Positions 3,953 through 24,186 of a stretch of 32,983 bases of DNA are shown piece by piece. This stretch comes from Archaeoglobales archaeon (GTDB lineage Archaea; Halobacteriota; Archaeoglobi; Archaeoglobales; Archaeoglobaceae), in NCBI GenBank assembly GCA_003662995.1, contig QMZC01000020.1:1-32983 (forward strand), in the 5' to 3' direction. Under the pieces are notes generated by a model. It worked only from the letters and a program-made list of their open reading frames with translations, did not search any database and had not been told where the DNA came from. Numbering within the stretch: position 1 is the first letter of the stretch; the number at the start of each line of letters is the position of its first letter. The position numbers and the translations under genes were made by a program.

Positions 3953-5163
3953 TATCCAAAGAATTGGAGTTTACTGGACATCTGATTGACTCGATGATAT
4001 TTACAAAGGTGTTGGATACGATTCTCGAGCTGGAAGGTGAATTCGAGATAGTTGAGTTTGATGTTGGAAAGAAAAAGGAGGATTACAGTTATGCTAAGCT
4101 TATCGTAATTGGAAAAGATGAAGAGCATCTGAACAAAATTTTACACGAATTACACAAGTTGGGGGCGAAAATTCCTGAGGTTGAAGAGGTGGAACTAAAA
4201 GAGGCACCAGCAAACAAGGTGCTGCCCGACGGGTTTTACGTAACAACAAACCATCCAACGTTCATAAACTACAAGGGAGTCTGGATGGAGGTGGAGGACA
4301 TAAGCATGGATAGGGTTATAGCAATTAGAAACAACAAAGCAGTTTGCATATCAATTGGTGAGGTTGAAAAGGGAGATTTGATTGTTGTTGGGGAGAGGGG
4401 TGTTAGGGTAATTCCACCTGAAAGACCTAGAAAATCCACCTACTTTCAATTTATGGGGGGCAGTGTATCGTCTGAAAGACCAACCGAGGAAATAATCGAA
4501 ATCGTTGCCCGAGAAATTGTAAACTTGAAGAAAAATGGTGGTAAGATTGCCGTTGTTGCCGGTCCTGCCGTAGATCATACTGGAGCTAGAGATGCATTGG
4601 CAGGAATGATCAGAGATGGTTATGTTGATTTACTACTGAGCGGGAATGCTGTTGCTGTCCATGACATCGAACTTTCAATTTTTGGCACATCCCTTGGCAT
4701 GGACATACGAAGTGGAAAACCTGTACCAGGAGGGAACAGACATCATTTGTACACAATCAGCAAGGTGATAGCTGCCGGTGGAATTAAAAAAGCAGTTGAG
4801 GCAGGAATTATTAAGGACGGGATAATGTATGAATGTATCAAAAACAACGTTCCGTTTGTGTTGGCTGGTTCAATAAGAGACGATGGGCCACTGCCAGAGG
4901 TAATAACAGACGTTATGGAGGCTAAGAAGGAAATGAAGAGGGCTTTGAAGGGCATAAACATGGTAATAATGCTTGCCACCATGCTCCACAGCATTGCGGT
5001 TGGTAACTTACTACCTTCAACGGTAAAAACGATATGCGTTGACATAAACCCTGCAACAGTCACAAAACTTATCGATAGGGGAACAGCTCAGGCAATCGGA
5101 ATCGTTACAGACGTTGGATTGTTCGTTCCACTGCTTTATGAGAAATTAAAGGAAATTGAGTGA
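3949..5163 (+). CDS. LOR/SDH-domain protein, probable archaeal ornithine cyclodeaminase (TIGR00300 family)
   Basis: 404 aa. The N-terminal region (about 1-100; ELEFTGHLIDSMIFTKVLD) is the small domain known from lysine-oxoglutarate reductase/saccharopine dehydrogenase bifunctional proteins. The C-terminal part binds a dinucleotide: GGKIAVVAGPAVDHTGARDA near 200-215, then LLLSGNAVAVHDIE. Members of this family in methanogens, and the matching domain of cyanobacterial AgrE/ArgZ, convert ornithine to proline and ammonia. Co-translation with argB (ATGA overlap with the TIM-barrel gene) fits a role in ornithine use or proline synthesis. Family assignment is firm; the reaction is inferred from homologues. 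Confidence 0.82.
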   Translation: MISKELEFTGHLIDSMIFTKVLDTILELEGEFEIVEFDVGKKKEDYSYAKLIVIGKDEEHLNKILHELHKLGAKIPEVEEVELKEAPANKVLPDGFYVTTNHPTFINYKGVWMEVEDISMDRVIAIRNNKAVCISIGEVEKGDLIVVGERGVRVIPPERPRKSTYFQFMGGSVSSERPTEEIIEIVAREIVNLKKNGGKIAVVAGPAVDHTGARDALAGMIRDGYVDLLLSGNAVAVHDIELSIFGTSLGMDIRSGKPVPGGNRHHLYTISKVIAAGGIKKAVEAGIIKDGIMYECIKNNVPFVLAGSIRDDGPLPEVITDVMEAKKEMKRALKGINMVIMLATMLHSIAVGNLLPSTVKTICVDINPATVTKLIDRGTAQAIGIVTDVGLFVPLLYEKLKEIE

Positions 5164-20035: not shown

Positions 20036-20683
20036 TTACAAAAATTTGGATGCAAAGGTTGAGGGCTTGGAGTTGCAAACTTCAAGATACCAGCATTTGC
20101 TACAAACCCTCCTCTTTTGTTTTTCTGGAACAAAACCCTTCTTTACCTTCAATACCCGTTCAATCAACCTCAAAACCTGATATTTTTCCCGCCTAGTAAT
20201 CTCAACTTTTTCAAGCTCACCATCAAAGCAGTAGTAAACCAAACCTTCATTCACCTCCAAAAGCATACAAAATGCTGTAATCTTAACCAAATCCCTGAAC
20301 CAGACTTTATCTCCATCTGGCTTTCTTAAAGCCAGAGTTAGCGGTAATTTTTTACCCCTAAACAAAACGATTTCATCTAAAACACCTTTGAGCCTTAATT
20401 TATTTGATTCGAGTTTTATTTCCCACTCTATTGGTTGAAATTCGTCGAGGATTAAGTTGTACTTGAAATTCTTGCACGCCTTATTGAAAACTTCTGGCTC
20501 ATCATAGAGTTGTTTAAACCTTTCAAAAGCCCAGTCGTTGTCAAAACCTTTTCTCCTGCTCAGATAAATCTCCCTCGCCGCATGCATTTCTGTGATACGA
20601 TCTTCTCCAAACCTTAGTCTGAAATATAAAAGGCGAGGGCAAAAGGCGTATGTAGAGATGTCGCTAACGTTGACCAAATCCAT
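20036..20683 (-). CDS. Stand-alone Cas4/RecB-like protein with degenerate nuclease site
   Basis: 215 aa. The Cas4 iron-sulfur layout is visible: Cys15 in AFCPRLLYF and C194, C197, C203 in CSKCWYLEVC. His34 in MHAAREIYL and Asp103 in KGVLDEIV match nuclease motifs. The E-x-K motif expected next reads PLTLALRKP (114-122), with no Glu, and the usual QxxxY reads KITAF. Nuclease activity is therefore doubtful. No CRISPR array or other cas gene is nearby. TATA-like TTTTTAAT at 20703-20710 precedes the ATG by about 24 nt. Probably co-transcribed with trm5 downstream. Possible roles are nucleic-acid binding or Fe-S-dependent repair, by inference. Confidence 0.78.
   Translation of the reverse strand: MDLVNVSDISTYAFCPRLLYFRLRFGEDRITEMHAAREIYLSRRKGFDNDWAFERFKQLYDEPEVFNKACKNFKYNLILDEFQPIEWEIKLESNKLRLKGVLDEIVLFRGKKLPLTLALRKPDGDKVWFRDLVKITAFCMLLEVNEGLVYYCFDGELEKVEITRREKYQVLRLIERVLKVKKGFVPEKQKRRVCSKCWYLEVCNSKPSTFASKFL
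20316..20336. repeat. Perfect 9-bp inverted repeat inside the Cas4-like gene
   Basis: TCTGGCTTT, 3-nt loop, then AAAGCCAGA. It covers codons 117-123, exactly where the nuclease E-x-K motif should be. Confidence 0.7.
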
Positions 20684-20745: not shown

Positions 20746-20778
20746 GTCTCATATACCCACTAAAGTTGGGTGGTAACG

Positions 20779-22125
20779 ATGGAGGAGATTAGAGAGCTTG
20801 CTGCCCGATTTGAAAGAATTGGTGCACACTCACACATCAGGGGATTAGGTTTAGACGAGAACTTGAAGGCCAAGGATGTTGCTGATGGATTGGTTGGACA
20901 GATAAAGGCAAGAGAGGCTGCAGGAGTGATTGTCAAGCTGATACAATCTGGAAAGATGGCTGGTAGAGGAATTTTGATGGCTGGGCCACCAGGCACTGGA
21001 AAGACCGCTATTGCAGTTGCTATTAGTAAGGAGTTGGGTAAGGACATTCCATTTGTTCAGGTTTCAGCCTCAGAATTCTACAGCAGTGAAATGAAAAAGA
21101 CTGAGGCTTTAATTCAAACGATGAGAAAGGCAATTGGTGTAAGAATTAGAGAGACGAGAACAGTTTTGGAGGGTGAAGTTGTTGGTTTAGACTACAACAT
21201 GGTTCCAAATCCATACAATCCAACGCAAAAGATTCCTGAATCGGCTACACTAACATTGGCAACTAAAGACGAAAAGAGAACGTTCAGCATTAGTGGAAGA
21301 TTAGCTTTACAGTTCTTATACAATGGAATTGAAACTGGAGATGTTGTTGTGATTGACAAAGAAACTGGAAGGATTTCAAGGGTTGGCAGAAGTGAAAAAG
21401 CCACGAAAAAGTATGATTTGGGAGATTACGACATTGTTGAGGTGCCAAAAGGCAAGGTTGAGAAAAACAAGGAGTTTACTTACGTCGTAACTCTGCACGA
21501 CTTGGATGAGGCTAATGCTAGAAGAACGACCATATTCAGCCTGTTTTCAACAGAAAGTAGAGAGATTGATAATGAGATAAGAGAAGCGGTTGATGAACAG
21601 GTTAAGAGATGGGTTGAAGAAGGAAGAGCAGAGTTGGTGCCAGGAGTGTTGTTTATTGATGAGACTCACTTAATGGACATAGAGCTGTTTGCCTTCATGA
21701 ATAGGGCAATGGAGTCGGAGATGGCTCCGATAATAATACTTGCGTCGAACAGAGGATTTTCAAAAATCAGAGGCACAGATATAGTTGCACCTCATGGCAT
21801 ACCATTGGATTTGCTCGACAGATTGTTGATAATAACCACCGAGGAGTACAAGAAAGAAGAAATCAGAACAATCCTTGAAATCAGGGCTGCAGAGGCGGGA
21901 ATTATGTTGAGTGAGAAATCGCTAGAAAAATTAACTGAGTTGGGAGTTACAAACAGCTTAAGATACGCCGTTCAATTGTTAGCTCCAGCATACGAATATG
22001 CAAAATTGAGAAATTCTGGAAAGGTTGAAGTGGAGGATGTTGAGAGGGCTGCAAGCATATTCGTCGATGTAAATCAGTCCTCAGCCTACCTCAAAAAGTG
22101 GGAGGAAAAGATGTTGAGTATGTGA
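20779..22125 (+). CDS. TIP49 / RuvB-like AAA+ ATPase
   Basis: 448 aa. Archaeal homologue of eukaryotic RuvBL1/2 (TIP49), AAA+ helicase-like subunits of chromatin and snoRNP assembly complexes. Walker A GPPGTGKT (69-76); Walker B LFIDETHLMD (291-300); between them, roughly 120-235, the OB-fold insert typical of TIP49 (GEVVGLDYNMVPNPYNPTQ). The C-terminal helical lid contains SLRYAVQLLAPA. A GTG nine bases earlier is in frame, but the GGGTGGT ribosome binding site favours the ATG at 20779. Followed on the same strand by pcn and priL, placing it in a replication neighbourhood. Its archaeal function is not established. Confidence 0.93.
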   Translation: MEEIRELAARFERIGAHSHIRGLGLDENLKAKDVADGLVGQIKAREAAGVIVKLIQSGKMAGRGILMAGPPGTGKTAIAVAISKELGKDIPFVQVSASEFYSSEMKKTEALIQTMRKAIGVRIRETRTVLEGEVVGLDYNMVPNPYNPTQKIPESATLTLATKDEKRTFSISGRLALQFLYNGIETGDVVVIDKETGRISRVGRSEKATKKYDLGDYDIVEVPKGKVEKNKEFTYVVTLHDLDEANARRTTIFSLFSTESREIDNEIREAVDEQVKRWVEEGRAELVPGVLFIDETHLMDIELFAFMNRAMESEMAPIIILASNRGFSKIRGTDIVAPHGIPLDLLDRLLIITTEEYKKEEIRTILEIRAAEAGIMLSEKSLEKLTELGVTNSLRYAVQLLAPAYEYAKLRNSGKVEVEDVERAASIFVDVNQSSAYLKKWEEKMLSM

Positions 22126-22233: not shown

Positions 22234-22261
22234 TTTCAACCCCATCCAATTTGTGATAACC

Positions 22262-22999
22262 ATGATTGACACAATTGTAGCTGGAGAAGTTCTTAAAGCC
22301 GTTACAAAAGCCATGGTTGCGTTGGTCAGTGAGGCAAGATTTCATTTTTTGGAGAACGGTTTGCACTCCAGAGCCGTTGACCCTGCAAACGTGGCGATGG
22401 TGATTGTGGATGCACCATCAGATTCTTTTGAAGTGTATAGAGTTGATAATAGCCCCACAATTGGCGTGGACATCAACAGAATATACGACATTTCAAAATC
22501 AATTAAGAGTGGAGAGCTTGTGGAGTTGAAAACTGTAGATGAATCAACACTAAAAATCAAGTTTGGAAGTGTTGAGTATTCTGTTGCTTTAATTGACCCG
22601 TCGGCAATAAGGAAAGAGCCAAAGGTTCCGCAATTGGAGTTACCGGCAAAAATAGTTTTAAATGCTGGTGAATTTAAGAAAGCTATTGTTGCTGCTGACA
22701 AAATAAGTGACCACGTTGTGTTCAGAACGAATGAGGATGGATTTTACATCGAGGCTGAGGGGGATGTTGACAAGATCACCTTCTACATGAGCGATGCTGA
22801 ACTTATCGAATTCAATAAACAGGAGGCAAGGAGCATGTTCTCCATTGAATACTTGAAGGAATTCACCAAGATTGCCGGGAGCGGAGATTTGCTCACGATA
22901 TATCTGGGCATAAACTATCCGGTAAGGCTACAATTTGACGTAGCTAATGGTAAAGTTAAAGTAGAGTACATCCTCGCCCCAAGAATTGAAGCAGAGTAG
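22262..22999 (+). CDS. pcn: DNA polymerase sliding clamp PCNA
   Basis: Homotrimeric ring that tethers polymerases, ligase and nucleases to DNA. 245 aa from MIDTIVAGEV, the standard clamp length; the frame begins three codons earlier at a GTG. Typical segments: KAMVALVSEARFHFLE, LHSRAVDPANVAMV near 35-50, the interdomain region around PQLELPAKIVLNAGEF, and C-terminal VKVEYILAPRIE. Basic residues line the helices expected in the pore. The stop is followed after 5 nt by priL, so clamp and primase are co-transcribed. Confidence 0.97.
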   Translation: MIDTIVAGEVLKAVTKAMVALVSEARFHFLENGLHSRAVDPANVAMVIVDAPSDSFEVYRVDNSPTIGVDINRIYDISKSIKSGELVELKTVDESTLKIKFGSVEYSVALIDPSAIRKEPKVPQLELPAKIVLNAGEFKKAIVAADKISDHVVFRTNEDGFYIEAEGDVDKITFYMSDAELIEFNKQEARSMFSIEYLKEFTKIAGSGDLLTIYLGINYPVRLQFDVANGKVKVEYILAPRIEAE

Positions 23000-23004
23000 A
23001 AGTA

Positions 23005-24186
23005 ATGGAGTACTTACCATTATTACCTTTTTTGATAAAGTATCCATTTCTTAAAGCATCAGGAGTTTTAATCTCTCAGGAATATTCCAATCTGGAAGAA
23101 ATAATAAATTCAGAAAGAGAATTTGAAAGAGAAGCAAAAGAACTTGGAAAGTGTATTATTTTGTCGATATTCAACAGGTGTGATGTTGAGTTTGAAGATG
23201 TAAAAAAGAGCTTCATCTGCTTGAGTTGTGAGGAGAAATCGTGTAAGGTTTATTGTAAAAACGGAGCAATAAACGGGAAATTTGATTGGAATAAATGTGA
23301 TTTATGCTTGGAATGTTTTAAGAATTGTGGCAAAGATGACAGGAGGTACATGGAATACAAAAACAAGGCGAAAAAGGGCATAGTTGCCTTCTTGTTCTCA
23401 AGAATTCTTGTATCAAATTTAGATGAATGGGTGAGGAGGAGGTATGCAGTAAATGAGGCAAGGAGATACAGAGAGCTTATGAAAAATGAAAGTGATGAAT
23501 TTCTGTTGTTTTTGGCTAAAGACTTGGGAGTTAAAAGCTTCATAAATGAGGATTACTACGTTCACGTAACGTCTTACATTAAAGCTTCATCCAGAATTAA
23601 ATCCGAGGACTGGAGATTGGTAAACAGAGTGTTAAAAGAGGGATACGTTGTTTTAGACAAGGGCAAATTTGTGAGAGTTCTAGAGGAATTTTTGAAAGAA
23701 AGACTTCTGGAAAGAATTGTAATCGATGATTTGGAATCCATTAAACCGTATCTCAAGGAAATTGAGAGAGTTGTGGCAAAGGAAAAAAAGAAGTTTGAGA
23801 AGATTGAGTTTGACAGGGTTGATTTTAGCTGTTTTCCGCCATGCATGAGAAACATATTGGCTGATCTAAGAAAGGGGATAAACATCCCACATACAGCCAG
23901 ATTTGCTGTAACATCGTTTTTGCTAAACATTGGGCTTGACACGGAACAGATAATTGATCTATTCAAGTCAGCCCCAGATTTTGATGAGGAGAAGACAAGG
24001 TATCAGGTTGAACACATCGCAGGCTCTAAAGGGACAGAGTATGATTGTCCAGCATGCGATACCATGAAAACGTATCAAAACTGCTATGAAGATAACAGTT
24101 GCAAAAAAATAAACCATCCCATCTCTTACTATAGGAGATGTATGAAACGCATGAAACTAAGCCAAAAAGATGGGGACAAAACTTAA
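23005..24186 (+). CDS. priL: DNA primase large subunit with an extra ferredoxin-like insert
   Basis: Regulatory subunit of archaeal primase, partner of PriS (not in this window). 393 aa, longer than typical archaeal PriL (about 300-400, varying). The N-terminal helical domain matches through RRRYAVNEARRYREL near 144-158, and DWRLVNRVLKEGYVVLDKG near 202-220 is characteristic. C-terminal [4Fe-4S] ligands are Cys280 (FPPCMRN), Cys351 (ACDTMK), Cys360 and Cys366, with ARFAVTSFLLNIGL and TRYQVEHIAG between them. Unusual: residues 72-108 hold eight cysteines in ferredoxin spacing within the N-terminal half. The start is 5 nt after pcn. Confidence 0.93.
   Translation: MEYLPLLPFLIKYPFLKASGVLISQEYSNLEEIINSEREFEREAKELGKCIILSIFNRCDVEFEDVKKSFICLSCEEKSCKVYCKNGAINGKFDWNKCDLCLECFKNCGKDDRRYMEYKNKAKKGIVAFLFSRILVSNLDEWVRRRYAVNEARRYRELMKNESDEFLLFLAKDLGVKSFINEDYYVHVTSYIKASSRIKSEDWRLVNRVLKEGYVVLDKGKFVRVLEEFLKERLLERIVIDDLESIKPYLKEIERVVAKEKKKFEKIEFDRVDFSCFPPCMRNILADLRKGINIPHTARFAVTSFLLNIGLDTEQIIDLFKSAPDFDEEKTRYQVEHIAGSKGTEYDCPACDTMKTYQNCYEDNSCKKINHPISYYRRCMKRMKLSQKDGDKT
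23218..23328 (+). other. Ferredoxin-like two-cluster cysteine motif inside priL
   Basis: Residues 72-108 of PriL: C72-x2-C75-x4-C80-x3-C84 followed by KNGAI, then C98-x2-C101-x2-C104-x3-C108. The second half is an exact CxxCxxCxxxC cluster motif, and CxNGAI resembles the CPxGAI of dicluster ferredoxins. The proline normally following the last cysteine of each motif is missing. Confidence 0.75.

Follow-up and report, generated by a model that had tools for sequence, protein, structure and literature searches.

A cysteine-rich insert of probable dicluster ferredoxin ancestry in the DNA primase large subunit of Archaeoglobales

The large subunit of DNA primase (PriL) in the order Archaeoglobales carries a cysteine-rich insert between two helices of its N-terminal domain. 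On balance, we consider it probable that the insert is a minimised dicluster ferredoxin that was captured once, that it probably binds two [4Fe-4S] clusters, and that its role is mainly structural or connected with assembly. Ferredoxin ancestry is well supported by profile matches and by the pattern of cysteine loss; cluster binding, the pairing of the ligands and the structural role are what we infer from sequence.

The priL gene and its cysteine-rich insert

The window (the whole stretch of 32,983 nucleotides that was analysed) contains the priL gene for the large (regulatory) subunit of DNA primase at 23005..24186 on the forward strand, the strand of all priL features given below. A PriL protein of 393 aa is translated from this open reading frame without interruption. 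It matches the Pfam family PF04104 (DNA_primase_lrg) with E=5.5e-35 and 121.4 bits, above the curated cut-off of 22.4, and its residues 1-382 are aligned with the NCBIfam PriL model NF002589 at a score under the curated cut-off. It is the only match in its genome. It is flanked directly upstream by the gene for PCNA (22253..22999, forward strand; Pfam PCNA_N and PCNA_C) and downstream by that for ribosomal protein S17e, a neighbourhood that is usual for a housekeeping gene of replication. Two other genes of the window encode a TIP49/RuvB-like AAA+ ATPase, a homologue of RUVBL in an archaeal host (20770-22125, forward strand; Pfam TIP49, E=4e-157), and, adjoining it, a Cas4-like (DUF83) protein with a cysteine-rich C-terminus (20036-20683, reverse strand).

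The PriS partner is encoded in the same genome (PF01896, 86 bits; G000:C54, 188-1315, L179). An Fe-S subunit of the Fer4_11 (DMSO-reductase) type is encoded ~2.8 kb away from priS (4100-4894).

In the full-length AlphaFold2 model of PriL (mean pLDDT 89), the N-terminal helical part that precedes the insert (residues 1-54, 23005..23166) contains predicted helices at residues 4-12, 17-26, 30-35 and 39-54, and the insert forms a module between helix 39-54 and helix 115-137. Alignments and the model place the ferredoxin-like insert at approximately residues 61-114 (23185..23346), and it adds ~45 residues to the domain. It is followed by the rest of the N-terminal domain, including the RRYA helix (residues 115-237, 23347..23715; alignment and model), and by the region of the C-terminal [4Fe-4S] domain with C280, C351, C360 and C366 (23821..24135; Pfam and alignments).

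The insert contains eight cysteines in 37 residues (C72-C108, hereafter C1-C8) in the arrangement C-x2-C-x4-C-x3-C-x13-C-x2-C-x2-C-x3-C. The first-pass annotation had reported this array at 23212-23337, and we found it there with the same spacing, the eight codons occupying 23218-23328. Alignments delimit motif 1 (C72-x2-C75-x4-C80-x3-C84, C1-C4) at 23218..23256 and motif 2 (C98-x2-C101-x2-C104-x3-C108, C5-C8) at 23296..23328. The other cysteines of the protein are residues 50 and 59 ahead of the insert and 276, 280, 348, 351, 360, 366 and 379 in the C-terminal part. The cluster of cysteines in the insert is non-random, because Cys accounts for only 1.0% of residues in the other long open reading frames of the window and the chance of at least eight in 37 residues is P ~4e-9 per position, or ~8e-5 over the window. 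The cysteines of the classical C-terminal cluster are also as first annotated: C280, C351 and C360 are invariant in all 49 aligned PriLs of the order, and C366 is present in the window protein and displaced by an indel in many relatives.

The insert had been read as in frame and free of frameshift, and this reading is borne out by its presence in 49 of 49 aligned PriLs of Archaeoglobales and by the short loop at the same position in related methanogen PriLs. The window genome is a draft of 187 contigs, which would leave room for a frameshift, a misassembly or a chimeric gene; however, independent genomes across the order, some of them single-contig, share the homologous in-frame insert, so we regard an artefact as ruled out, its probability being negligible.

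Distribution of the insert and conservation of its cysteines

On the evidence of these alignments, the insert is a trait of the order Archaeoglobales and not, as could be supposed from the window alone, a peculiarity of one genome. Matches to the profile of Archaeoglobales PriL span the insert in 56 of the 57 order genomes; the remaining one (G051) has only a contig-end fragment, which covers profile positions 2-54. Named relatives with a matching PriL are metagenome-assembled genomes of Archaeoglobus, Geoglobus and Ferroglobus. Among 393 evenly sampled genomes of the phylum, all matches listed from outside the order start at profile position 106 or later, past the insert; the comparison beyond the phylum comprised the solved PriLs of Sulfolobus and Pyrococcus. 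On the window protein, the PriL matches of Methanosarcinales start at residue 126 and one from Methanoperedenaceae at residue 109. A lineage of the same class outside Archaeoglobales (G026, L138) has a short cysteine-free extension of its own at the insert loop, which indicates that this loop tolerates insertions.

Several genomes encode a second protein with a domain of the PriL C-terminal type (L182:140-1228 in G025:C1, G049:C1:1083765, G046:C22:25586 and G050:C2:9861). These proteins, with open frames of 344-383 aa, are matched outside the insert only and are possibly primases of mobile elements. A viral origin of the window PriL was considered and rejected, as no relative of it was found in a scan of IMG/VR.

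The cysteines are the conserved part of the insert. In an alignment of 26 inserts they are the sole columns flagged as invariant or at least 90% conserved, and mean column identity outside them is ~31%. C72, C75 and C108 (C1, C2 and C8) are Cys in all 49 PriLs of the order, and C80 in 46, the other three showing indel ambiguity. Every sequence has at least four cysteines in the insert. At least eight are present in 41 of the 49 (nine in some), many with changed spacing; in many members motif 1 reads C-x2-C-x3-C-x2-C, which is a non-canonical spacing for [4Fe-4S] binding. The remaining eight PriLs have four insert cysteines (five in one of them, with a CC doublet), and none of the 49 has six or seven.

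The four-cysteine proteins (L036, L039, L041, L043, L062, L071, L093 and L026) form one clade with support 97/98 in a tree calculated with the insert columns excluded. The same tree recovers the order Archaeoglobales as one clade (support 100/99), in which L050 and L072 branch first. The intact motif in these deep branches fits a single gain followed by reduction: the insert was probably captured once by the ancestor of Archaeoglobales, with one of its two metal sites later lost in a single branch. In five of the four-cysteine PriLs (L036, L039, L041, L043 and L062) the retained cysteines align as exactly C1, C2, C3 and C8, and in the other three (L071, L093 and L026) the third insert cysteine is of ambiguous identity. 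The clade offers a natural one-site variant for comparison.

Ferredoxin ancestry of the insert

The basal inserts of L050 (CERCEELTCIAHCPNNAI...CEGCGKCLEHC) and L072 (CRDCEFISCISVCPEKAI...CSGCGRCLQGC) keep the textbook ferredoxin motif. L050 matches Fer4_7 with E=6.1e-5 and 23.8 bits, below the curated cut-off of 27, and L072 matches the LdpA Fe-S profile with E=1.2e-5 and 25.4 bits, below the curated cut-off of 27.6. These two inserts also match DsrO (E=3.5e-7, below the curated cut-off), DmsB (2e-4) and NrfC (2e-4). The best Pfam matches of the window insert are Fer4 with E=0.4 in the whole protein and Fer4_6 with E=0.036 and 14.5 bits (cut-off 25) when the insert is searched alone. No match of a Fer4-clan profile above its curated cut-off was obtained for the window insert or for those of L050 and L072. 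Since significant E-values are found in the basal members only, we call the insert ferredoxin-derived and not a full member of a ferredoxin family.

A profile of 26 inserts was compared with PDB chains. The best matches are 6cz7_B (ArrB-type, 3e-4), 6x6u_B and 6x1o_B (Fe-S subunits of tungsten enzymes) and 1kqf_B (formate dehydrogenase beta), with E from 3e-4 to 1e-3; these top matches, Fe-S subunits of the DMSO-reductase type, are aligned over both motifs, and zinc-finger chains appear lower as weaker matches. In the own genome, the insert profile matches PriL itself and, next best, a Fer4_11 subunit of the DMSO-reductase-B type (E=5.6e-7). For the isolated insert, AlphaFold2 gave a weak model (pLDDT 62). 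In a Foldseek search with this model, ~21 of 25 matches are ferredoxin-fold Fe-S proteins, each of them non-significant, with archaeal RNA polymerase subunit D at the top (E ~2). Given the poor model and the individually non-significant matches, the fold claim is based on sequence more than on structure.

The way in which cysteines were lost is informative as well. In an interleaved dicluster ferredoxin, C1, C2, C3 and C8 are the ligands of cluster I. Of the 70 possible sets of four retained cysteines, this is one of the two that leave an interleaved ligand set intact, and it disrupts both sites of a model with two tandem zinc sites. Retention of C1, C2, C3 and C8 supports the ferredoxin topology over the tandem zinc model; as it comes from one clade, and so from one evolutionary event, the loss pattern is suggestive. 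The insert of this clade would then bind one cluster. The dicluster ferredoxin arrangement proposed in the first-pass annotation therefore stands as to ancestry, given the matches to Fer4_7 (6e-5) and DsrO (3.5e-7), the PDB profile matches and the loss pattern; the spacing of motif 1, C-x2-C-x4-C-x3-C, is that of the DMSO-reductase-B/DsrO type and not of a classical small ferredoxin.

Probable role and comparison with known systems

We propose that an ancestral PriL of Archaeoglobales captured a dicluster ferredoxin domain of the DMSO-reductase-B/DsrO type in the loop between two N-terminal-domain helices. The predicted ligands are interleaved, with C72, C75, C80 and C108 binding cluster I and C84, C98, C101 and C104 binding cluster II. 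The window PriL would probably hold three clusters, two in the insert and one in the C-terminal domain. The idea of a three-cluster primase agrees with the eight insert cysteines and the C-terminal set found here; with four insert cysteines in one clade, it does not extend to the whole group. The insert clusters could stiffen a small surface knob and so stabilise PriL or dock a partner, for which PriS, the mobile C-terminal domain of PriL, RPA or a polymerase are candidates. Cluster I would be indispensable, and cluster II would have been lost a single time, in the four-cysteine clade.

A structural or assembly role is favoured because one clade dispenses with cluster II, because the ferredoxin-like domain of Rpo3, especially its cluster 1, affects assembly of RNA polymerase, and because the cluster domain of Sulfolobus PriL is not needed for priming: it can be replaced without loss of this activity (PMC5700102). 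Sulfolobus PriL is also lost on hydroxyurea treatment, and the authors speculate that the cluster is destabilised (PMC5134839); stability of PriL may thus be sensitive to its cluster. An alternative is redox control, in which electrons would pass between the insert clusters and either the cluster of the PriL C-terminal domain or an external donor, and DNA affinity, primer length or hand-off would be tuned in this way. The eight ferredoxin-type cysteines, the resemblance of the basal inserts to the electron-transfer subunits DsrO and DmsB, and a redox-dependent DNA affinity of the human primase cluster domain, reported but disputed (PMC6298731), would all agree with such control. We nevertheless hold it to be unlikely, given an apparently single-site clade that manages without cluster II, the unimpaired priming after domain replacement in Sulfolobus and the assembly function of the Rpo3 domain; redox control of priming by the insert is possible but unsupported. 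Still less likely is its most far-reaching form, a three-cluster primase in which the DsrO-like domain is electronically linked to the C-terminal cluster or to the respiratory electron pool and couples priming or hand-off to redox state.

Replacement of Fe-S clusters by Zn(Cys)4, at least in the lineages with C-x2-C-x3-C-x2-C and in the four-cysteine clade, also appears improbable. It would account for the four CxxC pairs of many members, the zinc-finger chains among the weak profile matches and the fact that the derived family has lost the CP/CG signature of ferredoxins. However, the set C1, C2, C3 and C8 kept by five four-cysteine members breaks tandem zinc sites and preserves cluster I, the best matches of the insert profile are [4Fe-4S] proteins, and the window PriL retains both the C-x2-C-x4-C-x3-C and the C-x2-C-x2-C-x3-C spacing. 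The variable loop length and spacings, together with the cysteines lost in one clade, might be taken as signs of an accidental capture that is now decaying and has no important function, but we consider this very unlikely: at least four cysteines persist in every sequence of the order while the other columns of the insert diverge, which points to purifying selection on metal ligands. Compensation for a lost zinc site in PriS was rejected. PriS proteins of the window genome and of seven others (Archaeoglobales and the outgroup G026) have 1-4 cysteines and no obvious zinc site, and that of G026 is equally cysteine-poor in a genome whose PriL has no insert, so the two features are not coupled.

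The redox role of the iron-sulphur cluster of primase is disputed. This question would become testable by comparing related primases predicted to hold a single cluster (outgroups), two clusters (the four-cysteine clade) or three clusters (most Archaeoglobales). PriSL of Archaeoglobus fulgidus has been used biochemically, as cited in PMC4538821; if its insert were partly demetallated in air, the reported activities may need re-examination. In agreement with the first-pass annotation, which knew of no description of the insert, we found none in the open literature searched (open-licence papers only). PriL and ferredoxin domains are each known, and the absence of any earlier description of their combination is not proven.

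The window PriL belongs to the same family as the solved Sulfolobus PriLs (1ZT2 and 5OF3; PF04104), with which it shares the C-terminal [4Fe-4S] cysteines, the RRYA helix and the following N-terminal alpha/beta region. The two are alignable only from residue 134-136 of the window protein, where its RRYA helix aligns from residue 72-74 of Sulfolobus PriL onward. In related methanogen PriLs, a short loop takes the place of the cysteine-rich domain. The Fe-S subunits of the DsrO/DMSO-reductase type (DmsB, NrfC, FdnH, ArrB) share the C-x2-C-x4-C-x3-C ... C-x2-C-x2-C-x3-C pattern, and the basal PriL inserts are significantly similar to them. These subunits contain several such motifs each and transfer electrons between enzyme subunits; in contrast, the PriL insert is one trimmed domain in a replication protein, and the CP signature is lost in the derived family.

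The ferredoxin-like domain (D3/FLD) of Rpo3, subunit D of RNA polymerase, is likewise a dicluster domain inside an information-processing enzyme of anaerobic archaea. Its cluster 1 is more conserved, cluster 2 is more often lost, the clusters matter for assembly of RNA polymerase, and both motifs are reported in Rpo3 of Archaeoglobales (PMC5300874). The enzymes differ, and the own-genome profile search ranked the DMSO-reductase-B-type subunit first; no Rpo3 was recognised among the matches listed from that search, and descent of the insert from the Rpo3 domain is unsupported, the best own-genome matches being DMSO-reductase-type subunits. The comparison suggests that, after Rpo3, PriL is a second instance in which a core information enzyme of anaerobic archaea acquired a dicluster ferredoxin domain that was subsequently trimmed, with cluster I apparently kept.
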